Below the pieces are notes generated by a model that saw only the letters and a list, made by a program, of their open reading frames with translations, did not search any database and had not been told where the DNA came from. The translations under genes and the position numbers were made by a program. A DNA stretch of 64,000 bases from Streptomyces sp. NBC_01788 (lineage in GTDB: Bacteria; Actinomycetota; Actinomycetes; Streptomycetales; Streptomycetaceae), in assembly GCF_035917575.1 (NCBI RefSeq), contig NZ_CP109090.1:806001-870000 (forward strand), written 5' to 3'. Shown one piece after another: positions 1,428 to 20,596 of the stretch; positions within the stretch are counted from its first letter, which is position 1, and each line of letters opens with the position of its first letter.

Positions 1428-1551
1428 GAGTTCCTCTCCTCCGAACGGAGACCTCCCCGCGGACCCGGCGTCGCTCGGCCGCCGGCCCCGGCGGGGCTTT
1501 CAAGGTCCCCTGTCCCCGGACGCGAGGGAAACACCCCTGATCCGCGTCCGG

Positions 1552-1794: not shown

Positions 1795-1831
1795 GTCCGT
1801 GCTCCTCCCCAATCGTCGTCCGCGGGTCAGC

Positions 1832-2446
1832 CTAGCGATCGAGACCCGGCGTCAACAGGCCACGTGAGGGGGACTTTTCAGCAGAGGCGCCAGGCCGCGT
1901 GCGGATGTGCAGGTGGCCGTCGAGTGGGTGGTCGGGCGGCGCCGCCGGCAGGATCCCGGCCTGTTCGTACCCGCATGTGCGCGCGACCCGGCAGGAGGCC
2001 GTGTTGTCCACCTGGTGCAGCAGCTCCAGCCGGGCCGGCCCCCGGCCCCCGAACAGGGTGAAGGCCCAGTCGGTCAGGGCCAGCAGGGCCCGGGGCGCCA
2101 CCCCCCTGCCGCGTGCGTGCGCGGCGGTCCAGTAGCCCACCTCGGCGGACGGGACGCCACGACGTAGGCCCTTGACGACGGCGTGCCCCACCAGACGCTC
2201 GCAGCCCTCGGGGCCTTGCGCCTCCAGGACGGCGAACGAGAAGCGGTCCCCCGTCTCCCAGTCCCGCTGCCGCTCCCGGATCCACCGGGCCGCGTCGGCC
2301 CCGTCGTCCACGACCTGACCGGCCCACCGGCGCAGTGCCTCGTCCCGGTACGCCTCGACCAGGTCGGCCGCGTCCGCCGCGCGCCAGGGGCGCAGGGTCA
2401 GCGCGGGGGCGTCGGGGGTCGCCTCCGCCATCGGGTAGGCCGTCAC
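1832..2446 (-). CDS. GNAT family N-acetyltransferase
   Basis: This 204-residue protein has the acetyltransferase fold of RimJ/RimL-like GNAT enzymes. It opens with LTLRPWRAADAADLVEAYRD, has the beta-4 strand VGYWTAAHARGRGVAPRALLAL with the acetyl-CoA pyrophosphate loop (R-G-R-G-V-A), and ends the core with NTASCRVARTCGYEQAGIL. The GTG start overlaps the stop of the upstream ligase gene by 4 nt (GTGA), so the two are translationally coupled. The substrate cannot be read from sequence. Small molecules or N-terminal amino groups are usual for this subfamily. Confidence 0.85.
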   Translation of the reverse strand: MTAYPMAEATPDAPALTLRPWRAADAADLVEAYRDEALRRWAGQVVDDGADAARWIRERQRDWETGDRFSFAVLEAQGPEGCERLVGHAVVKGLRRGVPSAEVGYWTAAHARGRGVAPRALLALTDWAFTLFGGRGPARLELLHQVDNTASCRVARTCGYEQAGILPAAPPDHPLDGHLHIRTRPGASAEKSPSRGLLTPGLDR

Positions 2447-3942
2447 CGCGCGGTGAACCGGTCGCGCAGTTCCCTCTTGAGGATCTTCCCGCTGGCGTTG
2501 CGCGGCAGTTCCTCCACGAAGATCACTTTCTTGGGAACCTTGAACGACGCGAGCTTCTCACGGGCGTGGGCGATCAGACCGGCCTCCGTGACCTCGCCGC
2601 ACGGGACCACGAACGCGGTGACCGCCTCGATCCACCGCTCGTCGGGGAGCGCGACCACGGCCGCCTCGGCGACACCCGGGTGCGTGTACAGGACGTCCTC
2701 GACCTGGCGCGAAGCCACCAGGACGCCACCGGAGTTGATGACGTCCTTCACCCGGTCGACCACCGTGTAGTAGCCGTGCGGGTCGCGTACGGCGAGGTCG
2801 CCGGAGCGGAACCAGCCCGCGCGGAACGCCTCCGCGGTCTCCTCGGGGCGGTCCCAGTAGCCCTCGCACAACTGCGGTGAGCGGTAGACGATTTCGCCCG
2901 GCGTGCCGTCGGGCACGTCGTTGCCTTCCTCGTCGACGACGCGGGCGTCCACGAACAGCACCGGCCGGCCGCAGGAGTCCATGCGGCCCTTGTGCTCGTC
3001 GGGCCCGAGCACCATGGCCAGGGGGCCGATCTCACTCTGGCCGAAGCAGTTGTAGAAGGCGAGTCGCGGCAGGCGCTCCCGCAGGCGTTCCAGGACCGGC
3101 ACCGGCATGATCGACGCGCCGTAGTACGCCTTGCGCAGTCCGCCCAGGTCGCGGGTGGCGAAGTCGGGGCGCCCGGCCAGCCCGATCCAGACCGTGGGCG
3201 GCGCGAACAGGCTGTCCGCGCGTCCGGCCTCGACCAGGTCGAGGATCCGGTCGCCGTCGGGCGCGTCGAGGACGATGTTCGTCGCGCCGACGGCGATGTA
3301 CGGCAGCAGGAAGACGTGCATCTGCGCCGAGTGGTAGAGGGGCAGCGCGTGGACGGGGCGGTCCCCCGCACTGAAGTCGAGCGCGGTGATCGCGCTCAGG
3401 TACTCGTGGACCAGCGCCCGGTGCGTCATCATCGCGCCCTTGGGCAGGGCGGTGGTGCCCGAGGTGTACAGCAGTTGCACGAGGTCATCGGAACGCGGCT
3501 CGGGGCCGTCGTACGGAAGCGTGGACGGCAGCCGGGCGAGCAGCGAGTCGTCCGCGTCGCGCAGCGGCAACGTCCTTGTTCCGGCCGGGAGTCGCCCGGC
3601 CAGGTCCGGGTCGGTGAGCACCAGGGCGCTGCCCGACTGGCCGACGATGTGGGCGAGATCGTCGCCGGTGAGGCTCTGGTTGACGGGCACGTGCACCAGG
3701 CCGGCGCGGGCGCAGGCGAGGAAGCCGATCAGGTAGGCGTCGGAGTTGTGGCCGTAGGCGGAGACGCGGTCGCCGCGGGCGAGGTCCTGGCCGAGCAGGA
3801 CGTTCGCCGCGCGGGAGACGGCGTCGTCGAGTTCGGCGTACGTCCAGGCGCGCTCGCCGTACTCGACGGCGACGCGTGCCGGGGTGCGCCGGGCACTGCG
3901 CCGCAGGACTCCGTCGACCGTACTGCCGTGTCCAGGCGTCAT
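2443..3942 (-). CDS. Class I acyl-CoA synthetase (AMP-forming ligase)
   Basis: This 499-residue ANL-superfamily enzyme activates a carboxylic acid with ATP and then transfers it to CoA. It has the P-loop-like motif LLYTSGTTALPKGAMMTHRA, the A5 region FYNCFGQSEIGP, the A8 hinge region GWFRSGDLAVRD and the C-terminal lysine motif LPRNASGKILKRELR, so it looks catalytically complete. The length is typical for fatty acyl- or aryl-CoA ligases. It lies first in a two-gene unit, overlapping the GNAT gene. The chain-length or aromatic substrate is not deducible. The divergent gene at 4137 shares the 194-bp intergenic region. Confidence 0.9.
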   Translation of the reverse strand: MTPGHGSTVDGVLRRSARRTPARVAVEYGERAWTYAELDDAVSRAANVLLGQDLARGDRVSAYGHNSDAYLIGFLACARAGLVHVPVNQSLTGDDLAHIVGQSGSALVLTDPDLAGRLPAGTRTLPLRDADDSLLARLPSTLPYDGPEPRSDDLVQLLYTSGTTALPKGAMMTHRALVHEYLSAITALDFSAGDRPVHALPLYHSAQMHVFLLPYIAVGATNIVLDAPDGDRILDLVEAGRADSLFAPPTVWIGLAGRPDFATRDLGGLRKAYYGASIMPVPVLERLRERLPRLAFYNCFGQSEIGPLAMVLGPDEHKGRMDSCGRPVLFVDARVVDEEGNDVPDGTPGEIVYRSPQLCEGYWDRPEETAEAFRAGWFRSGDLAVRDPHGYYTVVDRVKDVINSGGVLVASRQVEDVLYTHPGVAEAAVVALPDERWIEAVTAFVVPCGEVTEAGLIAHAREKLASFKVPKKVIFVEELPRNASGKILKRELRDRFTAR

Positions 3943-4074
3943 GACACATGATCCTCGTTCCGCTGCGGCGGAAGGTCAAGAAACGCCGTGGACACCGTTC
4001 ACCCAAGCCTACTTGACGCGCAGTCAGGATCAAGCGGGCACGCACGCACCGTTGACACGGCCCTCACCTGACAC

Positions 4075-4115
4075 GAAAGTTTCACTCCGCACGACCATCC
4101 CCGAAAGATACTTTC
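4075..4115 (+). promoter_or_regulatory. Paired GAAA-type inverted repeats before the hydrolase gene
   Basis: Two small inverted repeats occur close together: GAAAGTTTC at 4075-4083 and GAAAGATACTTTC at 4103-4115. They lie 22-62 bp upstream of the ATG at 4137, just after a TTGACA hexamer at 4052-4057 that could be a -35 box. They may be operator half-sites or part of the promoter. No matching regulator is visible. Confidence 0.35.
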
Positions 4116-4136
4116 AGACGGTGGGCGGGAGGCCTC

Positions 4137-5927
4137 ATGACGACCGACGGCGCGGCAGGCAGAGCAGCAGCAGGCGGGCTGACACGCCGCCAACTGGGCA
4201 GGGGCACGATGGCATTGGGTGGCGCATTGGCGCTCGCGGCCCTGCCCGCGGGACCGGCCGCCGCCGCCCCGGCGAACGGCAGCCCCACCCTGCGGTACGG
4301 ATCCCCCGAGCGGGCCGGTCTGCTGGCCGCCCCGCTGCGCCAACTCGTCGAGGACGCGGAGGCGTTCCTCGGCCCGTCCCCCACGCACCCCTGGTACGCG
4401 GGAGCCGTGCTGCTCGCCGGGCGCGGCGGGACCGTGGCGCTGCACGAGCCGATCGGCATGGCGGTGCGCTACTCGGCGTACGACGAGAAGACCGACACCG
4501 CCGTGGAGTTCCCGGCGGACCGGCGGATCCCGATGACCCGGGACACCGTCTTCGACCTGGCCTCGGTCTCCAAGCTGTTCACCTCGCTGCTCGCGGTGCA
4601 GCAGCTCGAACGGGGCACGCTGGAACTGGAGGGCAGGGTCGCGTCCTACCTCCCGGACTTCGGCCGGGCGGGCAAGCAGGACGTCACCATCCGCCAACTC
4701 CTCACCCACACCTCGGGATTCCGCGCCTGGATCCCGCTGTACGACGCGCCGACGTACGAGGGGAAACTCGAACTCCTCCGCAACGAGGCCCTGATCAACC
4801 CGCCCGGCACCGCGTACCTGTACTCGGACCTGAACATGATCTCCATGCAACTGGTCCTGGAGTCGGTCACCGGGCAGACCCTCGACACCCTGCTGCACGA
4901 GCGGATCACCGGGCCGCTCGGCCTCGACCGCACCCGCTACAACCCGCCCGCCTCCTGGAAGCCGCGGATCGCGGCCACCGAGGACGCCCGCAAACCCTGG
5001 TCGGGCCTGGACCGCGGCCTGGTGTGGGGCGAGGTGCACGACGAGAACGCGTTCAGCCTCGGCGGGGTGGCGGGGCACGCGGGCGTCTTCTCCTGCGCGT
5101 GGGACCTCGCGGTCCTGGGCCGTACGCTGCTCAACGGCGGCGCGTACGGGCGTACCCGCGTCCTGCGGCCGGAGTCGGTGGAGCTGATGTTCACCGACTT
5201 CAACACCGCCTTCCCCGGTGACGCGCACGGCCTCGGCTTCGAGCTCCACCAGCACTGGTACATGGGCGCGATGGCCACTCCGCGCACCGCGGGGCACACC
5301 GGGTTCACCGGCACGTCGCTGGTCCTCGACCCGACCACCGACTCGTTCCTGATCGTCCTCGGCAACTCCGTGCACCCGGTGCGCAACTGGCGCTCCGGCT
5401 CCGCTCCGCGGGTCGCCACCGGCAACGACCTGGCACGGGCCGTACCGGTCCGTGCGACGCGGGGCCGCACGGCGTGGTTCTCCGGGATGGCGAGTTCCAC
5501 GACGGCGACCCTGGCCCTCCCCTCGCTCGACACCTCCGCGGGCGGCGCCCGGCTGCGGTGCGACCTGTGGTGGGACACCGAGCCCGGATCGGACGTGCTC
5601 GTCCTGGAGTGCACGACGGACGGCGGCGCCACCTGGCAGCCGGTGCCGTTCACCACGACGCACCGTGGGGAGGAGCCGGAGCGGCACCCGACGGGCATCG
5701 CCACCGGCTACTCGGGCCGGGTCTGGCACGGCCTCACGGCCGACCTCCCGGCGGCCGGACGGCTGACCCTGCGCTGGCGGTACACGACGGACCGCCTGTA
5801 CGTGGGTCGCGGTGCCTACGTCGACGCCCAGCGGGTCGAGACCGGCCGCGCCGTCCTGTTCGACGAGGCGCGCCCGGCGGACTCGTCCCGTATCGAGGCG
5901 AAGGGCTGGACGGCCTCCGCGGACTGA
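4137..5927 (+). CDS. Secreted (Tat) serine hydrolase, beta-lactamase/class C esterase fold with C-terminal beta-sandwich
   Basis: This 596-residue exported enzyme starts with a twin-arginine signal (LTRRQLGRGTMALGGALALA, then an Ala-rich cleavage site). The beta-lactamase-type domain follows. The Ser-x-x-Lys nucleophile motif is DLASVSKLFTSLL (about residue 145), the second motif is Tyr-Ser-Asp-Leu-Asn and the third is HTGFTGTS. This arrangement fits esterases, D-aminopeptidases and penicillin-binding-like hydrolases. From about residue 450 a separate beta-rich domain (LRCDLWWDTEPGSDVLVLEC and RLTLRWRYTTDRLYVGRGAY) resembles the jelly-roll modules found in immune inhibitor A-type proteases. 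GGGAGG lies 8 nt before the ATG. The substrate is unknown. Confidence 0.85.
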   Translation: MTTDGAAGRAAAGGLTRRQLGRGTMALGGALALAALPAGPAAAAPANGSPTLRYGSPERAGLLAAPLRQLVEDAEAFLGPSPTHPWYAGAVLLAGRGGTVALHEPIGMAVRYSAYDEKTDTAVEFPADRRIPMTRDTVFDLASVSKLFTSLLAVQQLERGTLELEGRVASYLPDFGRAGKQDVTIRQLLTHTSGFRAWIPLYDAPTYEGKLELLRNEALINPPGTAYLYSDLNMISMQLVLESVTGQTLDTLLHERITGPLGLDRTRYNPPASWKPRIAATEDARKPWSGLDRGLVWGEVHDENAFSLGGVAGHAGVFSCAWDLAVLGRTLLNGGAYGRTRVLRPESVELMFTDFNTAFPGDAHGLGFELHQHWYMGAMATPRTAGHTGFTGTSLVLDPTTDSFLIVLGNSVHPVRNWRSGSAPRVATGNDLARAVPVRATRGRTAWFSGMASSTTATLALPSLDTSAGGARLRCDLWWDTEPGSDVLVLECTTDGGATWQPVPFTTTHRGEEPERHPTGIATGYSGRVWHGLTADLPAAGRLTLRWRYTTDRLYVGRGAYVDAQRVETGRAVLFDEARPADSSRIEAKGWTASAD

Positions 5928-6285: not shown

Positions 6286-8148
6286 GTGCAGTCGGACCAC
6301 GGTGCGAAGACCGGGGCGGCCGACCTTCGGGCCGCGCTCCGCGTCGCGGACCTGCTGGCCGGCGGGCCCGCCACGCGCGGCACGGAACCGGACGGCGAGC
6401 GGGGCGAGCCGCCGGCGCCGCCCGACCGGCACCGGGTGGCGCGGCTCCTGTCCGCCGCGGCCCCGCCGCCCGTCCACGCCTGGCGATCCGCCTGGGAGGA
6501 CGTGCTCGCCGAGGAACGCGCCGGGCGGTCGCCGGCGGGCCTGGGCTGGGTACTCACCCGCCTCGCTTCCGGCGCCTTCCCGGCCCTGGACGTACTGGAG
6601 GTCGGCTGTGAGCGGCTGCGCCTGAACCGGCTGGCCTACGGACCCGGCGCGACCGGTCCGGAGCTGATCCGACTGGCCGAGTCGTCCTGGACCGAACTGG
6701 CCCCCGCCTCCGCGGTGCTCCCGCGGGAGCGGCCGGGCCGGCTCTTCCTCCTCGCCGGCGGGAAGACCGGCGCCACGGCCGGGGTCGACGCCGCCCTGCG
6801 GACCTCTCTGGCCTCCTTCGCGCGGACCGGGCACCGCGATCCGACCGAGCCGCTCGTGCTCGCCGTCAGGGCCGCCGGCTGGCAGCCGCTGGAGCGGGCG
6901 GCCGAGGCGGTGCGGGCGGAGTCGGGCGCGCTGCTGTGCCTGCGGCTGCCCGCGCACTGGCCCCTGGCGCCGGAGGACCTGACGGGCGAACTGCCGCTGC
7001 GCACCACGGTGTGGCTCGCCGCCGCCCACGTCGACGGCGCCTCGGGGACGGTGGGCCTGGTGCGCCGGCCACTGTTCCCCGCGGGCAGCCGCGCGGACGG
7101 GCGTACCGCCGCCGGACCCGTCGTGCGGATCCCTGTCACCGCGCCGCCGCCCGGCGCGACCACCGGCGAGAGCGTCGCCGCCGTCGTCGCCGCCGGGCGG
7201 GACGAACCGGCGTCCCGGTGGCGCTCGCTGCGCATCGACCGGCTCGTACTGCCGCCCGGCTCCCGGACCACGCTGTCCTACTCCCTGCACGGAAGAAGCC
7301 GGGTGGAACTGCGCTACGACGGCCACCACGAACCCGAGACCTCCCCCTGGCCCGCGCTGGCCTCCGGGACGCCCCAGCAGCTCTCCCGGCCCTGCCCGGT
7401 CGACCTGATGGTCGCCGTCGAGGTCTCCGGGCCGCAGTCCGACGGGGGCACCGCGGTCGAGGAGCGCCTCCAGGAGGCCGCGGCCGTCGTCATCGCCGTA
7501 CAGGACGCCGTCGGCGGCGACGACACGCTCCGGGTGGGCCTGATCGGCTACCGCGACCACGACCCGCTCCACGGGCCGCGCGACCACGACCCCGTGGTGC
7601 ACCGGGTCGGGATGTCGGCGGCGCCGGACGCCGCGCGGGCGCTGGAGTCCTGGCGCCCCTGCCCCCTGCGGCACGACTTCGCCACGGGGCTGGAGCACGT
7701 GCCCGGGGAACTGCCCGGGTGGCGCCACCAGTGGCGGGCCGACAGCCACCGGGTGCTGCTCGTGGTCGGCTCCCGGCCGCCGCATCCGCGGGCCCGCCCG
7801 CCCCAGGTGCTGCGACGCGGCGCACCCGTGCGCATCTGCCCCGACCGGCTGGACTGGCAGGCCGAACTGGACGCGGCACGCCACCACGAGGGCGTCGCCT
7901 GCGTGGCCGTCGTCGACGAACCGGCGTGGATGGACGAGCTGGTGGGCGAACCCCATCTGGCGCACTGGGCGGACCACGCCTGGGGCGCGTTCGGCACCGA
8001 GGGGCGGTTCGACGCGGGGCACGACCCGCGGCAGATCGCCGCCGTCGTCGCGGCGCCCTCGCTGTGCCTGCCGCAGGACGGCGCGCCGATCCGGCTGGTC
8101 GTCGCCGACGGCACGACCGCCGACTGGCAGCACGCCGTGGCCGGCTGA
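6286..8148 (+). CDS. vWA-like protein of the GTPase-associated system (degenerate MIDAS)
   Basis: This 620-residue cytosolic protein has no signal or membrane segment. The N-terminal half is helical and unrecognised (for example PPPVHAWRSAWEDVLAEERA). The middle is beta-rich. The C-terminal 200 residues look like a von Willebrand A fold: first strand CPVDLMVAVEVSGPQSDGG, a helix EERLQEAAAVVIAVQDAV, a strand LRVGLIGYRDHD and a later strand HRVLLVVGSRPPHP. The metal-site motif DxSxS is not intact (VEVSG), so metal binding is doubtful. GTGAGGAACA precedes the GTG start. It is first in a run of five same-strand genes with a P-loop GTPase, GAP1-like protein, second vWA protein and kinase. It may act as the core partner or substrate adaptor. 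The vWA call is inference from strand pattern. Confidence 0.65.
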   Translation: MQSDHGAKTGAADLRAALRVADLLAGGPATRGTEPDGERGEPPAPPDRHRVARLLSAAAPPPVHAWRSAWEDVLAEERAGRSPAGLGWVLTRLASGAFPALDVLEVGCERLRLNRLAYGPGATGPELIRLAESSWTELAPASAVLPRERPGRLFLLAGGKTGATAGVDAALRTSLASFARTGHRDPTEPLVLAVRAAGWQPLERAAEAVRAESGALLCLRLPAHWPLAPEDLTGELPLRTTVWLAAAHVDGASGTVGLVRRPLFPAGSRADGRTAAGPVVRIPVTAPPPGATTGESVAAVVAAGRDEPASRWRSLRIDRLVLPPGSRTTLSYSLHGRSRVELRYDGHHEPETSPWPALASGTPQQLSRPCPVDLMVAVEVSGPQSDGGTAVEERLQEAAAVVIAVQDAVGGDDTLRVGLIGYRDHDPLHGPRDHDPVVHRVGMSAAPDAARALESWRPCPLRHDFATGLEHVPGELPGWRHQWRADSHRVLLVVGSRPPHPRARPPQVLRRGAPVRICPDRLDWQAELDAARHHEGVACVAVVDEPAWMDELVGEPHLAHWADHAWGAFGTEGRFDAGHDPRQIAAVVAAPSLCLPQDGAPIRLVVADGTTADWQHAVAG

Positions 8149-8155
8149 CAAGGAC

Positions 8156-8290
8156 GAGGCCGGCAAGGAACCAGGCCAACGAGGGCCCGAGGCCGACGAA
8201 GGCCGAATTCGACGAAGACCGAGGCCGGCGAAAACCCAGGCCAACGAGGGCCCGAACCCGATGAGGACCGGGGTCGGCGCGGGTCTCGCC
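8156..8290 (+). repeat. 65-bp imperfect direct repeat between genes 1 and 2 of the system
   Basis: Two tandem copies with a period of 65 bp fill the gap. A 9-mer GAGGCCGGC occurs at 8156 and 8221, and a 20-bp identical block (CCAGGCCAACGAGGGCCCGA) occurs at 8171-8190 and again at 8236-8255. The remainder is diverged. The region has no open reading frame of its own on the coding strand. It could be an expanded linker, a regulator site pair or an mRNA element between the two cistrons. Confidence 0.75.
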
Positions 8291-8373
8291 CACACCGGGG
8301 CGCGCGTGTGCGCGGACCGGACCACCATCGCGCGGCGGACGACATCCGCCGCCCATCGAGCGGGAGCACATCC

Positions 8374-9753
8374 ATGGTCGACGACGACGCGCGGTCCGAG
8401 CGCACAAAGGACGCCGAACCGGACCGCAGGCAACAGGACCGTGAGCAGGGGCCGTTGGACGTCCTGGGCAGGTCCACCCTCGTCGGGGGTCTGGCCGCCC
8501 TGCCCCCACCGCCGACCGCCCCGCCCGCGGCCGCGCCCCTGCGTCCCCGCCCGGGCCCCCCGGGCTCGCGGCAGGACCGGGCACGCGCGACCACTCCGCC
8601 CGCGCCCCGGTCCGCGCCCGAGGACGGGGCGCTGCCCAGCGTCTTCCTGGAGAAGGTGGACGAGCCGGCCGCGCCCGCACGCGCCGAAAAGCCCGCAAAG
8701 TCCGGCCGGAACGGGTCCTCGGAAAAGCGCGAGAAGCAGGAGGCGCCCCCTCAGGAGCCGGAGGACCAGTCCTCCTCGCCCGAGTCGACGATCACGCTCT
8801 GGGGCGGTATGCAGAGCGGCAAGTCCACGCTGCTGGCCGCCCTTTCCCGGGCCGTGCAGGACCCGCTGTACGGAAAGTGGACCATCTATCCGGACGACCA
8901 CGCCTCCCAGAAGTTCCTGGGCGACCTGGCACGCCTGCTGTACCGGGAGCGCAAGTTCCCCAACGCGACGCTGACCGAGCAGCGCCCCGTCCGCTTCACC
9001 CTGGCCGGCGACCTCACCGGTACCCGCTACTCGCGCGCCGGACGCAGACTCTTCCGGCGCGGCGCCGAACGCGCACGCGACCTGACGGAGTTCAAGGTCA
9101 CCGTCCGCGACCTGCCCGGGGAGGCGTTCGACCTGCGCTCGCAGACCGGAGCAGCCTACGGAAGCAGGCTGATCAAGGACCTCGGTGCCGCGCGGGCCAT
9201 GGTCTACGTGGTCGACCCCGTCCGCGAGTGGCAGGTCAACGGCGACGACGGACCGGTGACCAAGGACGCCCGGCAGAACGCGGACTTCTTCACCGAGGTC
9301 CTCGGCGGGGTGGCCACCGAGATCAACATGCGCCGTGAGCGCCAGGGCAACTTCCTGCCGCACAGCATCGCCGTGTGCCTGGCGAAGTTCGACGACGACC
9401 GCGTGTTCCGGTTCGCCTGCGAACAGGGCAACGTCCGGGTCAACCCGCGTACCAGGCAACCCGAGGTCATGGACGCCAAGCGGCTGTTCGACGGGCTGTG
9501 CAACGCGTTCCCGCACGGCAGCCTGCGCGAGATCCAGCAGCAGATCGAGCAGTTCTTCGCGCCCGAACGCGTCGGCTACTTCGTCTGCTCCGCCGTCGGT
9601 TTCTGGGTCGACCCGGACCGGGGCTTCGACTTCGAGAACCCGTACCTGATCAACCACGTCGAGGACAGCGTGCGCTTCGTGGCGCCGCCCAGGCCCGTCA
9701 ACGTCCTCGAACCGTTCCTCTTCCTGCGGGGCTTCGGCCCCACGCAGTCCTGA
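8374..9753 (+). CDS. Double-GTPase-type P-loop protein
   Basis: This 459-residue protein starts with about 135 residues of Pro/Ala/Lys-rich, disordered tail. The globular part opens with ITLWGGMQSGKSTLLAALSR, a Walker A loop (GGMQSGKST, Lys150). Later segments include FKVTVRDLPGEAFDL, a switch-like DLPGE motif, and RAMVYVVDPVREW, a strand followed by DP. These features fit the Double-GTPase/DO-GTPase families of TRAFAC-like NTPases known from GTPase-centred bacterial conflict systems. The ATG at 8374 has CGGGAG 9 nt upstream. The gene is 37 bp before the GAP1-like gene, consistent with an operon. The expected role is a nucleotide-dependent switch. The exact family is inferred by motif and gene context. 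Confidence 0.7.
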   Translation: MVDDDARSERTKDAEPDRRQQDREQGPLDVLGRSTLVGGLAALPPPPTAPPAAAPLRPRPGPPGSRQDRARATTPPAPRSAPEDGALPSVFLEKVDEPAAPARAEKPAKSGRNGSSEKREKQEAPPQEPEDQSSSPESTITLWGGMQSGKSTLLAALSRAVQDPLYGKWTIYPDDHASQKFLGDLARLLYRERKFPNATLTEQRPVRFTLAGDLTGTRYSRAGRRLFRRGAERARDLTEFKVTVRDLPGEAFDLRSQTGAAYGSRLIKDLGAARAMVYVVDPVREWQVNGDDGPVTKDARQNADFFTEVLGGVATEINMRRERQGNFLPHSIAVCLAKFDDDRVFRFACEQGNVRVNPRTRQPEVMDAKRLFDGLCNAFPHGSLREIQQQIEQFFAPERVGYFVCSAVGFWVDPDRGFDFENPYLINHVEDSVRFVAPPRPVNVLEPFLFLRGFGPTQS

Positions 9754-9790
9754 TCCGGCACCCGAACACCCGCATGAGGAAGGACACGCC

Positions 9791-12382
9791 ATGGCACCGG
9801 GGCTGATCGCCGACTGGGCCGTGTGGGGCAAGGAGCCCCACACCAGCAGCGGATACGGGGTCCTCGTCGCGCACCCGCCCGGCCGCAGCGCCGAGTTCAA
9901 CGCCGCCGTCCACCACTGGTCGCCGGGTACTCCGGAGCCCGGCGACCCGTTGCCGTGGATCACCATGGGCTGCGCCAGAGGCGTGGACGGAGCCCGCGCG
10001 GTCGGGGTCTTCGTGCTGGACCGCACGGCCGACGTGGACGGAAGCAACCGCGCGATCTACCGGATCACCCACTTCGCCGTCCCCTACGCGGAGGTGGGCG
10101 CGGCGGGCATCGGCTGGTGCGCACTGGCCCGCGCCGCCCACGCCGCCGCCGCGGGCCTGCCCGGCACCGGCGAGGGACCCGCGCGCCTGGCCTTCCGCGA
10201 GGAGGACCTGCTGGTCACCGATGTCGGCCACAACATCACGCCTTCGGTCTCGGAGCGCACCCGGTGGCTGGCGGCCGCCGCGGCCCATCTGCTGGACGGC
10301 CCGGTGGCGGTGACCGGCGACCGCCACCACGAGCCGTTCCAACTGCTGCGCGTCCTGGACTCCGTGGCCGCCCTGCTGCCCTTCGGCATGCGCAGCACCC
10401 TGTCCGCGGCCAGTTCGACATCCTCCGGCTCCGAGGTGCCCATGCGCCTGTACTGGGGTGAAGCCGAGGGCTCTCCCGGGGTGACCGCCCTGCCGGTGAG
10501 CGCCTCGCTGCCCGATCTCAGCGAGCTGTCCCCTCAGGCCCGCGGCTACCACGACCTGCTCATCGACAACTGGGCCACGCACGGCGGAGAGGCCGTCGTA
10601 CGGCATCTCGCCGACGCCCGGGAGCCGTTGGACATCGCCGGGCCCGACGCGCACGAGAGGGCGCTGGAGGTGCTGGCGGCCCTGGACCCGTCGCTGGCGG
10701 TCGCCCAGGCCGTCACCGCGGGCCAGGACGTGGACGCCGACCGGATCAACCAGGCCCTGCGCATGCCCGACATCAGTTCCAGAGCGCTCGCCGTCCTCGC
10801 GGGGAAGGCGCTGACCCATCCGCACACCGGAATGGAGGCACTGGCGCCCCTGATGTCGAGTCCCGAGGTCTCCCAGGCCTACCGCGACCAACTCTTCGCC
10901 GATCTGCTCCACGGGCGGACGGACGTGGCCCGCCGCGACTTCGAGAGCATGCGCGCCGCCCTCACCTCCACCGGGCAGAGCCTGGCCCCCCTGGACGAGG
11001 TCCTGGCCGGCGCCCTGGACGAACTCCGGGTCCGCTGCCCGCAGGGCGTGCCCGATCCCGTGACCGAGGGGCTGTTGCCCGCCGTCGCTCCGTTCAGCGA
11101 GGGCACCATGCGCTTCACGCACTCCATGCTGTGCCAGGTGCCCGGCCTCGCGGGCGGCCTGGTCCGGTCCCTGTACGCGGAGGCCGAACCGGGCGCCCTC
11201 GTCCGCGCCTGGCTGCGATGGCTGTGCGGCGAAGCCGGGCCCGAGCAGCGTACGGAGATCGCCGGAGGCGCCGAACTCCCTCTGCTGAACACCCTGTTGA
11301 GCACCGGCACCGGTCCGGCCGAGGCCGACCGGAAATGGGCCGCGGGCCACCCGGAGGCGGCGGCACGTCTGCTGGAGGGCGCCGTCGTCTGCGGCGCCGT
11401 CGACCAGGTCCTGCTGCCCGGCTTCTTCCAGGGGCTCCTCGACCGCGTGCTCCGCTCCCCCGCCGCGGCGGACGGCACCCCCCGGTCGCCGCTCCTGCGC
11501 ACACTGGGCCGGCCACCCGCCCGGATGCGTCCGGAGACGGCGGCCCACTGGGACGTGCTGTGCCTCCTGGCCGGTCTGCCGCCGTCAGGCTTCCTCAGCC
11601 TGGCCGCGACCGCGCCGCAGCCCGGCACCGTGGGCGTGACGGGACGGGTCGACACCTATGTCTCGACGCTGCGGGCGGCGCTTCAGACGCGCCCCGCGCA
11701 CCAGCACGCGCCCGCCGTGGTCGACCTGCTGCTCGACCGGGCCCTGTCGGTGGACAGGGCCACCGGTGCCGGTCCGGGGCAGGCCGGCCGCGACCTCGCC
11801 TGGCATCTGTCGCACTGGCCCGGACCCTTCCAGCAGATCGTCCTGGACGCCGTGTACCGGCTCGCCACCGAGGAGCCGCACTGGCGCGAGACGTCCGAGG
11901 ACCGGCGGTGGCTCATGCGCGTCGCGGACCGCCTGCCGTCCCTGCGGCCCCTGATCGGCCTGCGCCAGGTACACGGCCTGGCGTCGCGGTGCTCGGGCAC
12001 CCCGGAGGACTGCGAGAAGCTGGCCGTGCAGGTCTGCGGGGCACGACGGGCGGGCGCCGCGAACAACCAGCTCGCCGCCGCCCTGCAGCACTGGGCGGCC
12101 CACGGACGCGTCGGCGAACGCGTCCTCACCCTGCTCGAGGCCTACGAGCAGATCTGGACCTCCTACGACGCGACCGGCCGTGCCTCCGAGGAGCGCGAGG
12201 ACCTGGAGCTCGCCCTCATCCGGTGCAGCACCGGCCACCGGATCTGGGCCCAGTACCGCGAGCACGCGATCGGCCGGCAGACACAGCTCAAGGACGACCT
12301 CGACCGGCAGCGCCGGCAGTGCGAGCGGGAGATCAGCCGACTGCGCAAGCTCGACGCCGTCGCCGCCCGCGCCCGTACCTGA
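9791..12382 (+). CDS. GTPase-associated protein 1 (GAP1)-like protein
   Basis: This 863-residue cytosolic protein begins ADWAVWGKEPHTSSGYGVLV with the N-terminal beta-rich module of GAP1-like proteins (YRITHFAVPYAEVGAAG nearby). A long helical middle region and a final coiled coil (LKDDLDRQRRQCEREISRL) follow. It carries no known catalytic motif. It directly follows the P-loop GTPase gene with a good ribosome site (AGGAAGGACACGCC). GAP1 proteins are defined by their linkage to these GTPases and are thought to couple the switch to effectors. The assignment rests on N-terminal similarity and on gene order. I would expect protein-protein interaction through the helical middle and the coiled coil. 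Confidence 0.7.
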   Translation: MAPGLIADWAVWGKEPHTSSGYGVLVAHPPGRSAEFNAAVHHWSPGTPEPGDPLPWITMGCARGVDGARAVGVFVLDRTADVDGSNRAIYRITHFAVPYAEVGAAGIGWCALARAAHAAAAGLPGTGEGPARLAFREEDLLVTDVGHNITPSVSERTRWLAAAAAHLLDGPVAVTGDRHHEPFQLLRVLDSVAALLPFGMRSTLSAASSTSSGSEVPMRLYWGEAEGSPGVTALPVSASLPDLSELSPQARGYHDLLIDNWATHGGEAVVRHLADAREPLDIAGPDAHERALEVLAALDPSLAVAQAVTAGQDVDADRINQALRMPDISSRALAVLAGKALTHPHTGMEALAPLMSSPEVSQAYRDQLFADLLHGRTDVARRDFESMRAALTSTGQSLAPLDEVLAGALDELRVRCPQGVPDPVTEGLLPAVAPFSEGTMRFTHSMLCQVPGLAGGLVRSLYAEAEPGALVRAWLRWLCGEAGPEQRTEIAGGAELPLLNTLLSTGTGPAEADRKWAAGHPEAAARLLEGAVVCGAVDQVLLPGFFQGLLDRVLRSPAAADGTPRSPLLRTLGRPPARMRPETAAHWDVLCLLAGLPPSGFLSLAATAPQPGTVGVTGRVDTYVSTLRAALQTRPAHQHAPAVVDLLLDRALSVDRATGAGPGQAGRDLAWHLSHWPGPFQQIVLDAVYRLATEEPHWRETSEDRRWLMRVADRLPSLRPLIGLRQVHGLASRCSGTPEDCEKLAVQVCGARRAGAANNQLAAALQHWAAHGRVGERVLTLLEAYEQIWTSYDATGRASEEREDLELALIRCSTGHRIWAQYREHAIGRQTQLKDDLDRQRRQCEREISRLRKLDAVAARART

Positions 12383-12465
12383 ACGAGGCACAGCCCGACG
12401 AGCGCGAACCCCACGACATACAACGCACGACGCACAACCGCACGACACCAGGGGGACACCACCTC

Positions 12466-14058
12466 ATGCCCACCACCCGGGCCACGGCCCACCGAGCCGC
12501 GCTGCTCGCCCTCGCCTTCCTGCTGGCCCTGTGCGGCGCGGCGCCCGCCGCGGCCGCGGACCCACCGGTGCCACGCGACGACATCTACCGCTCGCTGAAG
12601 GTCGACGACGTCCCGGCGGCCTACGTCGTCCTCGTCGACGTCTCCAGCTCCATGCAGGACCGGGGCCCGGACGGCGTACCGCTCTACACCACGGTCAAGC
12701 GGCGCCTGGCCGACTTCCTCGACTCGCTGACGCCCGCCGACCAGGTGGCCGTCGTCACCTTCGGCCGGGCCACCGGGGTCGTCCACCCGATGTCCCCGGC
12801 GAACCGCACCGACGGCCTGTTCACCAAGGAACTCCCCCAGTCCGCCAAGGAGTCGGCGAGCGACCACGGCGCCGCGCTGGACGCCGCCGCCGACCAGCTC
12901 GACCGCAGCACGGCCCCGGTCGGGGCGGTGCTGATGCTCACCGACGGCGCCGTCAACGCGCCGGGCAGCCCGTTCGCCAAGCTGGGCAGCACGGCCTGGC
13001 AGCGGCTGAAGTCGCGCTTCGCCGCACTGGGCGAGGACCGCAAGATCATGGGCTACGGGCTTCCGCTCGCCGAGGGCACCGGGGTCGCCGAGGTGCTTGG
13101 CGGCGCCTTCGGCGCCCCGCGCATCCTGCCGGTCGACCCCACGGCCCTCGGCTCGCAGCTCAGCGCCGCCAAGGACCAGGTCCGCACGCAGAAGGCGGTG
13201 TCCCTGCTCCGCGCCGACCAGGGCGGCGCGGTCACCGTGTCGGTCGCCGGGGAGGGCGTGAGCGGAGCGGGCGGCGCACATGTCGCCGTGGCCACCGGGG
13301 ACCGCACCGGCGCCCGCACCCGGAAGCTGCGGGTGACGCTGGAGTCGAAGGCCACGCACGTGCCGCTGACGGTCCGGCTGACGGCCACCGGGGACACCGG
13401 CGGTCCGCGGCTGACCCCGGACGGACCCACCGCGCCCGTCACCCTGCGCCCGGGTGAGAAGAAGACCGTGCCGATGACGCTGACCTGGCGTCAGGAGGCC
13501 CGGTTCAGCCTGTTCCCCGGCGCCGGCGACTTCCGGGAGCGGGTGGGCCTGCGCGCCGAGATCTCCTCGGCGTGGACGACGACGGTCCGCGGTTCCCTCG
13601 GCGAGTCGAAGTTCTCCACCGGCGAGCCGGTCGTCACCGCGCTGGACCTGCGGGGCACCGTGCCCGGACGGCCGCCCGGCTGGCTCTACCCCCTCGTACT
13701 GCTCGTCCTGCTGCTGGGCTCCGCCCTCGTCTGGCGGGTCCACCGGCAGCGCAACCCCGAACTCGGCGGGCTGCTGGTCGTCACCGACCTACGGACCGGG
13801 AACCGGCAGACGATCCCGCTGCGCGGCCGGGAGGTCAGCGAGGAGACGGACGCCGGGCAGGTGCGGGCCCGGATCACCGTACGCGGCCGGCAGGAGGCCG
13901 GACGCGCGGTCCTCGTCCTGCGGTGCGAACGCGACGCCCCGCGCGCGGGCGGGGAGCGGCTGCGCGACACCGGCACCTGTGAGCTGGGCAAGTCCACCGT
14001 GCTGTGCGGCATCGGGTTCTCCCACGAGACGGAGAACGAGGCGGCCGTCCTTCAGTGA
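12466..14058 (+). CDS. Secreted/membrane-anchored vWA protein with intact MIDAS
   Basis: This 530-residue protein has an N-terminal signal peptide (LLALAFLLALCGAAPAAAA). A von Willebrand A domain follows, with a complete metal site: DVSSS (Asp58, Ser60, Ser62), a later Thr in LMLTDGA and a conserved Asp. After a beta-rich region (VSVAGEGVSGAGG, VTLRPGEKKTVPMTLTW) there is one membrane helix near residues 405-427 (WLYPLVLLVLLLGSALVWRV) and a roughly 105-residue cytosolic tail. The topology puts the vWA domain outside the cell and the tail near the kinase. The start at ATG 12466 follows CAGGGGGACACC. It could bind an extracellular or periplasm-side ligand and report inward. It is not a MoxR-associated vWA, because no MoxR AAA gene is nearby. 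Confidence 0.85.
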   Translation: MPTTRATAHRAALLALAFLLALCGAAPAAAADPPVPRDDIYRSLKVDDVPAAYVVLVDVSSSMQDRGPDGVPLYTTVKRRLADFLDSLTPADQVAVVTFGRATGVVHPMSPANRTDGLFTKELPQSAKESASDHGAALDAAADQLDRSTAPVGAVLMLTDGAVNAPGSPFAKLGSTAWQRLKSRFAALGEDRKIMGYGLPLAEGTGVAEVLGGAFGAPRILPVDPTALGSQLSAAKDQVRTQKAVSLLRADQGGAVTVSVAGEGVSGAGGAHVAVATGDRTGARTRKLRVTLESKATHVPLTVRLTATGDTGGPRLTPDGPTAPVTLRPGEKKTVPMTLTWRQEARFSLFPGAGDFRERVGLRAEISSAWTTTVRGSLGESKFSTGEPVVTALDLRGTVPGRPPGWLYPLVLLVLLLGSALVWRVHRQRNPELGGLLVVTDLRTGNRQTIPLRGREVSEETDAGQVRARITVRGRQEAGRAVLVLRCERDAPRAGGERLRDTGTCELGKSTVLCGIGFSHETENEAAVLQ

Positions 14059-14104
14059 CCCCTCCCCCGGCGGGCCGCGGAAGGCCCCGAGAAAGGACGT
14101 CGAC

Positions 14105-16051
14105 ATGGTGATGCCCCTGGACCCGGACGGGGATCCGGCGGAGGCCGCCGGGTTCCGGCTGCTGGGCAGACTGGGCACGGGCGGGTTCGGCACGGTCTAC
14201 CTCGGCCGGCGGCCCGGCGACCGGCACGGGCCGGACACGCTGGCGGCCGTGAAGCTGCTCAAGCACGAGTTCACCGAGGACGCCCAGCACATGCAGCGCT
14301 TCCACCAGGAGAGCAAGGCGCTGGAACGGTGCAGGGGCGCGCGGATCCCCGAGCTGCTCGCGCTCGACTTCGCGGCCGGCCGGCGGCCCACGCTGGCCAC
14401 CCGGTTCATCCCCGGTCTGTCGCTGTACCGGGTCGTGGAGGCGCACGGCGGCCCGCTGCCCCGCGACACGGTGCACACGCTCGCCGCCGAACTCCTCGAC
14501 ACCCTCGGCACCGCGCACCGCAAGGGGCTGCTGCACCGGGACCTGCACCCGGGGAACATCCTGCTGACCCACGACGGGCCGTGGATCATCGACTTCGGGC
14601 TCACCCGGATCCGCGGCCAGCGGGTCACGCTCACCCTCGACATGGTCATCGGGCAGCCCCACTTCTGCGCCCCCGAACAGGTGCGGGGGCTGGCCAGGAC
14701 CGGGCTCGCGACCGATGTCTTCGCCTTCGCCGGCATCGTCCTGTACGCCCTCACCGGCCACCCGCCGTACACCGCAGAGGACGACGCGCGGGCCATGCTG
14801 GTGCGCCGGGTGAGCGGGGCCGCGCCCGATCTGTCCAGGCTGCCGGACGACGCCACGGGCCGACTGATCCGTGCCTGTCTGGCCGAGGATCCGGCCGACC
14901 GCCCCCACCTGGACGAGGTCGTCGACGGCTTCGGCCGGCCGGGGGCACTGCGGCTGCCCGAGGGGGTGGGCCGCACCCTGACCGCGTACCGCACCGAACT
15001 GCGGGACTTCCTGGCCGGGGTGGGCAACGCCGCGGATCTGACGGTGCCGTTCCGTCCGGGGCGGCGCAGTTGGAGCGCCGGTGTCGGGGAGTGGCCGCAG
15101 TGCGTCGTGGCCACCGAGGAGGACGGGGTGGTCGTGGCCGACGGCGGGGGCGCGGTGCGCTGGCTGGACGCGGCCACGGGCGCGGAGAAGGTGTGCCGGC
15201 CGGACTTCACGGCTCCGGTGCAGCTGTGCGCGGACGGCGACGTGCTGCTGGTGTGCGACGCCGACGGGCGGCTGGAGTCCTGGGACACCCGGGAGCACCG
15301 CCTGTGGTGGTCCTCGACGGCGGGCGGACTCGCCCAGGCGCGGGTGCTGCTGCGCGGGCGGAGCGTGTTCCTCGGCGACGCGACCGGCCGGCTGCACCAC
15401 TTCGACGCGGTGACCCGGCGTCTGTGGTGGGAGACCGATCCGCTCACCGACACCTCGGGCGCCCCGGCCGTCCCGGTGGTGGTCGGGGCCCGGCAGGTGT
15501 ACCTGTCGGCCGTGCGGGGCGCGGAGATCCTCGCCGTCGACGACGAGGACGGCGCCCTGGCCTGGAAGGCACCGGTACGGCTGCCGGCCCCGGTCCTGGC
15601 GCCGCCGCTGCCGCTGGAGGAGCACCTGGTGGTCGCGGACGGCGAGGGCACGCTGAGGTGCCTCGCGGCCGTCGACGGTTCCGCCGTGTGGGAGGTCCGG
15701 CTCGGCGCGCCGGTGGTGGCCGCGCCGGTCAGGGTGCTCGACACGGTGGTCGTCGGGGACGTCGCGGGCACGGTCCACTGCCTGGGCGCGGCGACCGGCG
15801 AGCCGGTCTGGCGCGCGCACCACGGGGAGCGCGAGGAGTTCTTCGCCCTGTGCTCCGACGGGGCCGCGGTGTACGCGGGCGGCTGGAGCGGACGGCTCCA
15901 TCTGCTGGACGCGGCGGACGGCGCGTCGCTCCAGAGCTTCGACCTGGGCGGCCAGATCCTGGCCACGGCCTGCTCCCCCGGCGCCAACAGCATCCACGCC
16001 GCCTCCTCGGGCGGCACCCTGCACACGCTGCCGGCCGCGGCGGTCCGGTAG
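14105..16051 (+). CDS. Ser/Thr protein kinase with C-terminal PQQ/WD-like beta-propeller
   Basis: This 648-residue soluble protein has a Hanks-type kinase domain at about 15-270: glycine-rich loop LGTGGFGTVYLG (23-34), Lys50 in AAVKLL, catalytic HRD at 144-146 (LLHRDLHPGN) and DFG at 163-165. A region of about seven PQQ-like beta-propeller blades follows, with repeats such as DGGGAVRWLDAATGAEKVC, DATGRLHHFDAVTRRLWWE, and DVAGTVHCLGAATGEPVW. There is no membrane helix, unlike PknB-type kinases. It is the last gene of the five-gene run, 46 bp after the vWA gene, with GAGAAAGGACGTCGAC before ATG 14105. Kinase-propeller fusions typically sense a ligand or protein and phosphorylate partners. The likely targets are the other cluster proteins. 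Confidence 0.9.
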   Translation: MVMPLDPDGDPAEAAGFRLLGRLGTGGFGTVYLGRRPGDRHGPDTLAAVKLLKHEFTEDAQHMQRFHQESKALERCRGARIPELLALDFAAGRRPTLATRFIPGLSLYRVVEAHGGPLPRDTVHTLAAELLDTLGTAHRKGLLHRDLHPGNILLTHDGPWIIDFGLTRIRGQRVTLTLDMVIGQPHFCAPEQVRGLARTGLATDVFAFAGIVLYALTGHPPYTAEDDARAMLVRRVSGAAPDLSRLPDDATGRLIRACLAEDPADRPHLDEVVDGFGRPGALRLPEGVGRTLTAYRTELRDFLAGVGNAADLTVPFRPGRRSWSAGVGEWPQCVVATEEDGVVVADGGGAVRWLDAATGAEKVCRPDFTAPVQLCADGDVLLVCDADGRLESWDTREHRLWWSSTAGGLAQARVLLRGRSVFLGDATGRLHHFDAVTRRLWWETDPLTDTSGAPAVPVVVGARQVYLSAVRGAEILAVDDEDGALAWKAPVRLPAPVLAPPLPLEEHLVVADGEGTLRCLAAVDGSAVWEVRLGAPVVAAPVRVLDTVVVGDVAGTVHCLGAATGEPVWRAHHGEREEFFALCSDGAAVYAGGWSGRLHLLDAADGASLQSFDLGGQILATACSPGANSIHAASSGGTLHTLPAAAVR

Positions 16052-17979: not shown

Positions 17980-20226
17980 CTACGGCCCGTCGGCCGCGCG
18001 CTGCCCGCGCAGGACGGCGACCCTGCGGTACAGCTCTGCGGCCTCCTGGCCGCGGCCGAGTTGTTCCAGGCAGTGGGCCTCGTCGGTGCGGCTGGCGAGG
18101 GTGTCGGGGTGGCCGGCGCCCAGGACGCGCTCGCGGGCCCCGGCCACCGCGCGGTACTCGGTGAGCGCGTCGGCCCAGCGGCCGAGCCAGCCGAGGCTCA
18201 CGGCGACCTCACGGCGGCTGACGAGGGTGTCGGGGTGGTCGGCGCCGAGCACGCGGCCGCGGATCGCGCACACGTCGCGGGACTCCGCGAGGGCCTCCTC
18301 CCAGCGGCCGAGCCGGCCGAGGTTGACCCCGAGACCGTGGCGCGCGCGCAGGGTCTCGGGGTGCGCGGGTCCGTGCACCCGAGTGCGGTCGTCGATCAGG
18401 GCCCGGTACAGCTCCAGCGCCTCCGCGCTGCGCCCGAGCCGGCCCAGGCTGATGCCGACCTCGTAGCGGGCGGCCAGGGTGTCGGGGTGGTCGGCGCCGA
18501 GCGCACGGGTACGTGCCCCGGCGACCTCGCGGTAGGTGTCCAGAGCCTCCGCCCACCTCCCCAACTGCCCTAGGGCGTAGGCGACTTCGAATCTGGTGAC
18601 CAGGGTGTCGGGGTGCTGCGGCCCGAGCACCCGGGCGCGGGCGGCGGCAACCTGGCAGGCCATGCGGTACGAGTCGTCCGGGCGGCCGAGGCGGCTGAGG
18701 CTGAAGGCGAGGTTGTGCCGGCAGCGCAGGGTGTCGGGATGGTCCGGGCCCATGGTGCGCTCGCGCGCGGCGAGCACCGCCGCGTACACCTGGTGCGCGT
18801 CGAAGTGGCGGCCCAGGCGGCCCAGTACGTACGCCATCTCCTGGCGCACGGCGAGCGTGTCCGGGTGGTCGGCGCCGAGCGCCCCGATGCGCGCCTCGGC
18901 CACCTGCTTGTACTCCCGCAGCGCCTCGGCCGGACGACCGGTACGGCTGAGGCCGAAGGCGTATTCGTAGCGGCCGGCGAGAGTGTCGGGGTGGTCGGGG
19001 CCGAGGAGGCGGGCCCGCTCGTCGGCGATGGCCCGGTGTGCCTCGCACGCCTCTTCCCAGCGGCCGAGCCGTCCGAGGCTCAGGGCCGCCCGGTGCCGGT
19101 CGGTCAGCGCCCTGACGGCCTCCGGGGCGGGGACGGGCCGTCCGCCGGGCGTCCGCCCGGTCTCCGCCGGGCCGTCCGTGGCGGTGCGCGGGGTCCACTC
19201 GCCGGTCAGGCCGGCCGCGTCGGCCGGGGGTGCGGTGCGCGGGGCCGCGCCGGCCGCCTTGTGACCGGTGGTCATGCCGCGTGTCCACGACGGCAGCCGG
19301 GCGTCACGACCGGCCGGTTCGGACGGGCGCGGCCGTGGGAGCGGGGTGACCATGGTGGGCGCGTACCGCGGCACCGGCGTGCGGCCGGCGATGATGCGGC
19401 GGCTCAACGCGTGTGCGTCGTCGGGCCGTTGCTCGGGCAGTTTGGCGAGCAGGTCGAGGATGATCCGCTCCAGGTACCCGGGGAGTTCGGCGCGTTGACG
19501 GCGGGGCGGTTCGGGCGGGGTGTCGCGGTGCCCGACGAGGATCGCCCAGGCGTCGTCGAAGTCGAACGGTGGTGTCCCGGTGGCGAGTTCGTACAGCACA
19601 CAGCCCAGCGAGTACAGGTCGCTGCGCTGGTCGACCTCGGTTCCGCCGATCTGTTCGGGCGACATGTAGTGCGGGGTGCCCATGGCGACGCCGGTGCCGG
19701 TCAGGCGGGCGGTGAAGCCGATGTCGTGGCCGAGCCGGGCGATGCCGAAGTCGCAGATCTTCACCGTCCCGTCGGTCAGGCGCATGATGTTCGCCGGTTT
19801 CAGATCCCGGTGCACGATGCCCTGTTGGTGGGTGTAGGCGAGGGCCGCGGCGACCTGTTCGGCGATCTCGACGATGTCGGGCACGGCCAGCGGCCGGTGG
19901 TCGTTGTCCTCCAGCAACTGTCCGAGGTTGCGGCCGTCGAGCATCTCCATCACCAGGTAGAGCACGCCGTCGGACTCGCCGAAGTCGTGGACGACGGTCA
20001 CACCCCGGTGCTGGAGCGCGGCGGCCACCCGGGCCTCGCGCCGGAACCGCTCGCGCAGCACCCGGGTGAAGGACGGGTCGCGCTGGGGGCCCAGCGGCTT
20101 GAGGCACTTCACCGCGACATGGCGGCCCAGCGACTCGTCCCGCGCCCGCCACACCTCGCCCATGCCGCCCCGGCCGATGGTGTCGAGCAGCCGGTAACGG
20201 CCCTGGATCAGCATGGTGTCCGACAT
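17980..20226 (-). CDS. Ser/Thr protein kinase with C-terminal tetratricopeptide repeats
   Basis: This 748-residue protein has an N-terminal Hanks kinase domain (glycine loop IGRGGMGEVWRARD, Lys40, HRD 139-141 in VHRDLKPANI, DFG 159-161, APE-region MSPEQ). A proline-rich linker follows (residues about 290-370). The rest is made of about eight TPR-like units of 42 residues, each ending in the signature GxDHPDTLxxRxE(x)AxxLGRLGR. Their DNA repeats with a 126-bp period between about 18030 and 19050. No membrane helix is visible. The start is ATG 20226; the ribosome site is weak (GGCGGCGCGAG), so MLIQGR (4 residues in) is an alternative. Such kinases recruit protein partners through the TPR arm. 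This gene is separate from the five-gene operon but might be a related module. Confidence 0.9.
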   Translation of the reverse strand: MSDTMLIQGRYRLLDTIGRGGMGEVWRARDESLGRHVAVKCLKPLGPQRDPSFTRVLRERFRREARVAAALQHRGVTVVHDFGESDGVLYLVMEMLDGRNLGQLLEDNDHRPLAVPDIVEIAEQVAAALAYTHQQGIVHRDLKPANIMRLTDGTVKICDFGIARLGHDIGFTARLTGTGVAMGTPHYMSPEQIGGTEVDQRSDLYSLGCVLYELATGTPPFDFDDAWAILVGHRDTPPEPPRRQRAELPGYLERIILDLLAKLPEQRPDDAHALSRRIIAGRTPVPRYAPTMVTPLPRPRPSEPAGRDARLPSWTRGMTTGHKAAGAAPRTAPPADAAGLTGEWTPRTATDGPAETGRTPGGRPVPAPEAVRALTDRHRAALSLGRLGRWEEACEAHRAIADERARLLGPDHPDTLAGRYEYAFGLSRTGRPAEALREYKQVAEARIGALGADHPDTLAVRQEMAYVLGRLGRHFDAHQVYAAVLAARERTMGPDHPDTLRCRHNLAFSLSRLGRPDDSYRMACQVAAARARVLGPQHPDTLVTRFEVAYALGQLGRWAEALDTYREVAGARTRALGADHPDTLAARYEVGISLGRLGRSAEALELYRALIDDRTRVHGPAHPETLRARHGLGVNLGRLGRWEEALAESRDVCAIRGRVLGADHPDTLVSRREVAVSLGWLGRWADALTEYRAVAGARERVLGAGHPDTLASRTDEAHCLEQLGRGQEAAELYRRVAVLRGQRAADGP

Positions 20227-20596
20227 CTCGCGCCGCCCCCGTCGCCGTGTACCCCGCCTCTCCGGGCCGTGCCCGGCGTCCGGGCCGCCCCCTGGCCCCG
20301 TCCCGGCACCGGCCTGATCCGCGGGAGGGCCCCCGTCCAGTATGGCGAGCGACCGCCCGGCTTTGTACGGTGCGGAACGGACCCGGGGGCGCGGAGCTCC
20401 GGGTACGCGCGCCGCCCCGGGGGCGAGCCCGAACTGCACATCCCACCGTGCGAAATGACCCCGTACGAGGCGCCGGACGTCTGCGGCACCGCCCGCCGGG
20501 CCCCGTCCCGGCCCGCCCACCAGCGCTGATGCAAGGGCCCAGAGGAGGGACGAAAATGGGCAACGTACCTGATTCCCAAGCGAAAGGGAGCCAGTA
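20227..20596. other. Divergent intergenic region between the TPR-kinase and the small secreted-protein gene
   Basis: This 370-bp stretch shows no credible gene on either strand. It has a promoter-like low-GC patch only near 20540-20596 (GGGCAACGTACCTGATTCCCAAG). It includes the ribosome site GAAAGGGAGCCAG, 4 nt before the ATG at 20597. No operator symmetry was found. Confidence 0.5.

Follow-up and report, generated by a model that had tools for sequence, protein, structure and literature searches.

The window analysed here is a 64,000 nt stretch of the Streptomyces sp. NBC_01788 genome (positions 806001-870000 of a single contig of 8.27 Mb), and it carries an operon of five genes, named A to E in their order, that brings together a GTPase, a predicted GTPase regulator, two proteins with vWA folds and a Ser/Thr kinase. 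As described in the initial annotation, the genes are co-directional, and their gaps of 225, 37, 83 and 46 bp were recovered on the sequence. The genes and their parts, in window coordinates, are:

6286..8148, plus strand: gene A, 620 residues; an N-terminal alpha/beta region, then the two parts on the next lines
about 7009-7335, plus strand: beta-strand-rich region of A
7381-8070, plus strand: vWA-fold domain of A, with a degenerate metal ion-dependent adhesion site (MIDAS)
8374..9753, plus strand: gene B, 459 residues
8374-8778, plus strand: low-complexity N-terminal tail of B
8782-9738, plus strand: P-loop GTPase domain of B, related to DO-GTPase2
9791..12382, plus strand: gene C, 863 residues, a predicted GTPase-regulator protein
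9791..10726, plus strand: residues 1-312 of C, a predicted longin-like plus DENN-like module (beta-beta-alpha-beta-beta-beta-alpha-alpha, then mixed alpha/beta)
10727..12379, plus strand: residues 313-863 of C, a predicted HEAT/ARM-like helical array with a long helix at its end
12466..14058, plus strand: gene D, 530 residues, an exported vWA protein with intact MIDAS motifs
about 12466-12558, plus strand: predicted signal peptide of D, a hydrophobic segment
12625-12960, plus strand: vWA domain of D (VWA_2, E 6.9e-9, 36.7 bits against a cut-off of 27)
about 13675-13743, plus strand: predicted transmembrane segment of D, hydrophobic, with some 100 residues beyond it
14105..16051, plus strand: gene E, 648 residues, a Ser/Thr kinase with a beta-propeller
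14159-14923, plus strand: kinase domain of E (Pkinase, E 1.4e-29)
15128-16039, plus strand: PQQ/BamB-type beta-propeller of E (PQQ_2, 2.9e-20; Beta-prop_ACSF4, 2.2e-24, below its cut-off)

The operon is real and conserved. The A-B-C-D-E order is kept in all ten of the closest named loci (L001-L010), all from Streptomyces, and these ten carry the claim that the genes form a group; in the two most distant of them (L009 and L010), identity is 35% for C, 55% for E and 67% for B. The five genes, treated as a single system in the initial annotation, do occur together in other genomes. More broadly, a search for the B family in a collection with a single genome for each species yielded 76 loci, of which 75 were counted for neighbours; the remaining one (L070) was set aside because the gene caller gave no B there, although tblastn finds it. 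With A and C identified by match to a hidden Markov model (HMM) or by cluster membership, and with adjacency counts that are lower bounds owing to contig edges that cut some loci, C lies directly downstream of B in at least 69 of the 75, A directly upstream in at least 62, and both in at least 59. A D-like vWA cluster occurs in 28 of them, a DUF4407 cluster in 36, three AAA+ clusters in 33 and a radical-SAM cluster in 19, identities that rest on one to three scanned members per cluster; some kinase match to E is found in 29 of the 76. Two additional loci (L155 and L156) are both without E, and four others (L154, L157, L158 and L159) are the same DNA as L012, L010, L011 and L006 and do not count as extra examples.

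Across 199 sampled Streptomyces genomes, with scoring of 4 first-look candidates per genome for C and of 6 for A, A and C were found in the same 16, and by the listed coordinates A adjoins C on the same contig and strand in every one; in two of them (G261 and G292) A is counted from a fragment only, the gene being split between contigs. The genome of the window itself has a single copy of each.

Four main architectures are seen among the loci. Form I is the A-B-C-D-E order of the window. Form II has the order AAA+, B', C', E, A, B, C, D and is complete in L011, L012, L015 and L073; here (at about 1450-5760 in these loci) B' is a protein of 847-971 residues with its GTPase domain at the end, and it is followed by C', a protein of 301-310 residues that consists only of C's N-terminal module. 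A second GTPase gene is thus followed by C', so that each GTPase in these four loci has its own copy of the C module. Form III surrounds A, B, C and an unnamed protein (c7) with a radical-SAM gene, a second protein without a name (c9) and an AAA+ protein of 860 residues, often adding a coiled-coil protein and sometimes D. In form IV, kinase and DUF4407 genes are divergent from A-B-C, and further forms exist, for example the B-C-D arrangement without A of L024 and L033. From this mix of architectures, the core is B-C, usually with A, and it is often accompanied by D and E.

Streptomyces commonly carries kinases and vWA proteins, and a match to E is missing from all 19 loci that hold the 860-residue AAA+ protein of the radical-SAM form, as might be expected if the five genes were mere neighbours without a joint function. 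This explanation, already disfavoured, is very improbable: the order persists in ten species loci down to the identities given above, and A-B and B-C adjacency is found in most of the 75 loci.

Gene B encodes the GTPase. Its motifs are G1 (WGGMQSGKST, residue 143), G3 (RDLPGE, 245), G4 (AKFDD, 337) and G5 (CSAVG, 405), and in a 30-row alignment of the family G249 is invariant and E250 nearly so. Kaur et al. (2020, PMC7159879) name a Glu conserved in Walker B as a mark of the DO-GTPases, and B shows this feature, with its G motifs and the conserved Glu of its Walker B region (DLPGE). Moreover, when B was aligned by hhalign with 10 canonical DO-GTPase2 proteins taken from GAP1-N2 loci of Streptomyces, the match reached 99.3% (1E-20) over 272 columns, running from the P-loop to the C-terminal VNVLEP / VEDP. 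These results bear out the relationship of the 459-residue protein to the DO-GTPases that had been proposed from the letters. In contrast, B scores 12.9 bits against the Pfam model PF19993, below its gathering score of 27; the model has no match at E 0.001 in the genome, is carried by 2 of the 36 B homologues found and, at E up to 1, matches 21 of 30 family members (best, 9.7e-7). As the Pfam score stays under the cut-off, B is regarded, on its sequence profile, as a relative of DO-GTPase2 rather than as a called member.

The operon is a distant variant of the DO-GTPase systems. As far as the excerpted text of Kaur et al. (2020, eLife, PMC7159879) describes the DO-GTPase/GAP1-N2 systems, both have a DO-GTPase2-related GTPase followed by a large protein, with vWA and kinase genes nearby, in actinobacteria. 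The operon differs in that the sequence of C shows no GAP1-N2, a Pfam scan of the five proteins gives neither FNIII nor PP2C, B is under the Pfam cut-off, and an extra degenerate-vWA protein, A, lies directly upstream of the GTPase. The same excerpt gives two paralogous GTPases in 38% of DO-GTPase systems; the window operon has one GTPase gene only, and the four form II loci have two.

C had been described in the initial annotation as GAP1-like, and membership of the GAP1 family was not supported. Pfam GAP1-N2 (PF20013) is found neither in C, nor in 20 of its relatives, nor in the genome at E 0.001; profile-profile comparison of C with 14 canonical GAP1 proteins gave 0.2% over the full length and 0.4% for the N domain; and Pfam, hmmsearch and hhalign in all variants (full length, N, N+M, and with 33 further GAP1 sequences added) were negative or near noise. 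The best local match between them is collinear (171-221 with 177-224) and non-significant: it ranks second of 58 comparisons and first among the unreversed families, one reversed decoy outscores it, and with GAP1 as the query C ranks behind two decoys. The only links between C and GAP1 are the position downstream of a GTPase, the length and this collinear, non-significant patch.

These links bear on a different explanation, that the operon is a diverged DO-GTPase/GAP1-type conflict system acting against phage or rivals, in which C would be a drifted GAP1 missed by the profiles and, as the output, the infected hyphal compartment would be made dormant, contained or killed. The relationship of B to DO-GTPase2 fits, as do the B-related GTPase found directly before GAP1 in 10 of the 14 canonical GAP1-N2 loci read from Streptomyces, a GAP1 length similar to that of C, the collinear patch, the patchy distribution (16 of 199 genomes), and the kinase, PP2C and vWA genes described with GAP1-N2 in an excerpt of Kaur et al. 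(2020, PMC7159879). Canonical GAP1-N2 is present in 61 of the 199 genomes and, without correction for kinship, absent from all nine with a high-scoring C (P 0.034), which also fits; but it is present in all seven with a low-scoring C (P 0.0002, likewise uncorrected). The two groups are a bit-score split, with only G196 and G220 read among the seven, and the pattern may reflect lineage rather than function. Against a conflict system stand further the absence of a GAP1 match to C in every sequence test, the decoys that outrank it in both directions, and the lack of a recognised effector gene or of any defence gene among the 12 other annotated window genes. The PADLOC models gave no match for A, C or D; B hit LeoA weakly through its P-loop (E 0.056), and the 25 of 34 families listed for E are kinase models only (best PD-T4-6, 8.7e-43, and mad6, 3.8e-39). 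The defence role suggested in the initial annotation is possible, and a conflict system of this particular kind is a tentative alternative, less probable than the signalling switch set out below.

The greatest interest of the operon lies in C, predicted from its modelled structure to be a GTPase regulator of DENN/TagF-like type. The protein has no Pfam match below E 0.2, no NCBIfam match and, as said, no PADLOC match; its structure model has a predicted local distance difference test score (pLDDT) of 91.2. Of the 50 structure matches listed, four are confined to its first 326 residues, namely TagF and three DENN proteins, one of them solved with Rab35, and the remaining 46 begin at residue 293 or later. 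According to excerpts of the respective papers, the DENN module (longin, DENN and d-DENN) is a Rab guanine nucleotide exchange factor (GEF), longin and roadblock domains are GTPase-binding domains (both PMC3521125), TagF resembles a longin domain (PMC3325213) and TagF represses type VI secretion (PMC5995506).

The sequence comparisons are negative. Pfam DENN has no match in 21 members of the C family, a profile of the C module has no match among PDB sequences up to E 10, and two TagF segments score with the C profile no higher than many shuffled sequences do, by HMM and by position-specific scoring matrix. A pattern scan of viral contigs for further TagF sequences returned 17 stretches, none TagF-like by eye. 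The TagF_N family had no match in five plasmid records, but it had none in the control genomes either, so this negative carries no weight. K14, D83 and R87 are invariant or nearly so in the module. These residues carry the same numbers in 9t0n (9, 81 and 85 in PA0076); this correspondence was noticed post hoc, its shuffle tests were negative, and it was not used.

Relative to TagF (PA0076, ACIAD2683), a type VI secretion regulator, C is about 540 residues longer and has no sequence support; no type VI genes were seen here, and none were looked for. Relative to the eukaryotic DENN proteins (DENND1A, DENND1B and DENND10), modelled residues 1-312 of C appear to share the longin-then-DENN arrangement and the gene lies beside a GTPase, whereas no sequence similarity was detected, B is not a Rab, and any exchange activity of C is hypothetical. 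Among the papers listed, folliculin, Avl9 and the C9orf72 complex appear as GTPase-activating proteins (GAPs) and C9orf72 in one title as a GEF, so C might act in either direction.

Proteins A and D fit the descriptions given to them from the letters. A has a vWA fold with a degenerate MIDAS: the DxSxS pattern is missing, and by eye RPPHP stands at the later Asp motif. A DnaK-like identity for A, top by E-value in Foldseek (3.8e-8), was kept as a lead only, with a TM-score of 0.16 and a root-mean-square deviation of 27 Å. As a side observation, the A homologue at L156:10756-12666 opens with two CxxC pairs that are zinc-ribbon-like by eye; it has no Pfam match, and the window's A is without these pairs. 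D combines the VWA_2 match with intact MIDAS motifs (DVSSS at residue 58, TDG at 159) and two hydrophobic segments, consistent with a predicted trans-membrane topology; all 28 relatives have DxSxS, and 27 of them keep the late hydrophobic segment. A conserved L-x-G-R stretch in the last 100 residues of D suggested an FHA domain, for which Pfam gives no match.

E is likewise the soluble kinase with a beta-propeller that had been described, with the motifs GTGGFGTV, AVK, HRD, DFG and APE and no transmembrane-like segment. Its best NCBIfam match is AfsK, a kinase followed by a PQQ propeller that acts at hyphal tips, and E shares this kinase-then-propeller order but differs in its place in this operon. 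An operon serving cell polarity, the cell wall or development might be built in this way, with its GTPase and longin-like regulator resembling MglA-MglB or the Streptomyces conservons; MglA-MglB likewise pairs a GTPase with a neighbouring regulator of the roadblock/longin type (PMC3521125). Such a role is improbable: the match to AfsK totals 184 bits, with its best stretch over the kinase, far under the cut-off of 1300, and the spread over 16 of 199 genomes is ill-suited to a core developmental function.

Overall, the favoured reading is that the operon is a GTPase-based envelope-to-cytosol signalling switch, with a probability of about one half. It draws on the five-gene order of the ten named loci, the A-B-C adjacency, the co-occurrence of A and C, the placement of C' beside a second GTPase, the TagF and DENN structure matches, the relationship of B to DO-GTPase2, the motifs of D and E, and the GTPase-binding nature of longin and roadblock domains in the excerpted PMC3521125. 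In such a switch, D would be a membrane-anchored, metal-dependent vWA protein on the outside that binds an extracytoplasmic ligand and signals via its short cytosolic end; the soluble kinase E would phosphorylate one or more components, with its propeller binding partners; and the longin/DENN-like module of C would set the nucleotide state of B, as an exchange factor or an activating protein, while its helical array would be a scaffold for other components. A, with a vWA fold that would have lost normal metal binding, would read the state of B, and the output step, with whatever physiological effect, would be a conformational change of B.

A wider and more doubtful proposal is that bacteria own DENN-type regulators, with longin and DENN parts beside a dedicated GTPase, and that these form one superfamily with TagF and with the GAP1 of DO-GTPase systems. 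If this were true, type VI control and the actinobacterial GTPase systems would both draw on one ancient signalling kit of kinase, vWA sensor and longin-type regulator, and the Rab-DENN pairing of eukaryotes would have a precursor in bacteria. A search of one literature library found no paper joining TagF with DENN, a bacterial DENN, or DO-GTPase with longin, and among the matches listed in a broader search only Kaur et al. has DO-GTPase, without longin or DENN. The A and C families have no Pfam or NCBIfam name, yet in many actinobacteria, with Streptomyces, Actinomadura and Streptosporangium among them, a GTPase gene lies between the two. The DENN GTPase-control module is treated as eukaryotic in the available part of a 2012 paper (PMC3521125); if C is truly DENN-like, it would offer a testable bacterial counterpart and would also indicate which protein should govern the switch of DO-GTPase-like systems, for which any mechanism is so far a prediction.

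Around the operon, the 12 other window genes that were annotated are all of ordinary types. Upstream neighbours include a beta-lactamase-type hydrolase and an acyl-CoA synthetase; downstream ones include a flavin amine oxidase and, just beyond the operon on the opposite strand (17980-20736), another Ser/Thr kinase, which carries TPR repeats. A scan for promoters and terminators found no promoter-like site and one terminator-like site, on the opposite strand, a count not above shuffles.

Further observations concern genes of the related loci. The DUF4407 cluster that recurs in 36 of the 75 (PF14362, E 1.5e-81, one member scanned) has a member at L040:6922-8415 that adjoins a kinase and is a possible membrane effector. 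In the radical-SAM form, C is followed by a protein (L155:10664-12067 and L156:5588-6970; cluster c7, 19 loci) that has no Pfam match in three members scanned and whose N-terminus by eye resembles an actin/Hsp70-type ATPase (AIDPGTRFL, AVDAGSRFL). Lastly, a protein with a RES domain (PF08808, E 3.9e-19) is encoded at L155:2775-3452, a few genes upstream of A, and a similar-looking gene lies at L156:14332-15009; NAD-consuming toxins are known from the RES family.

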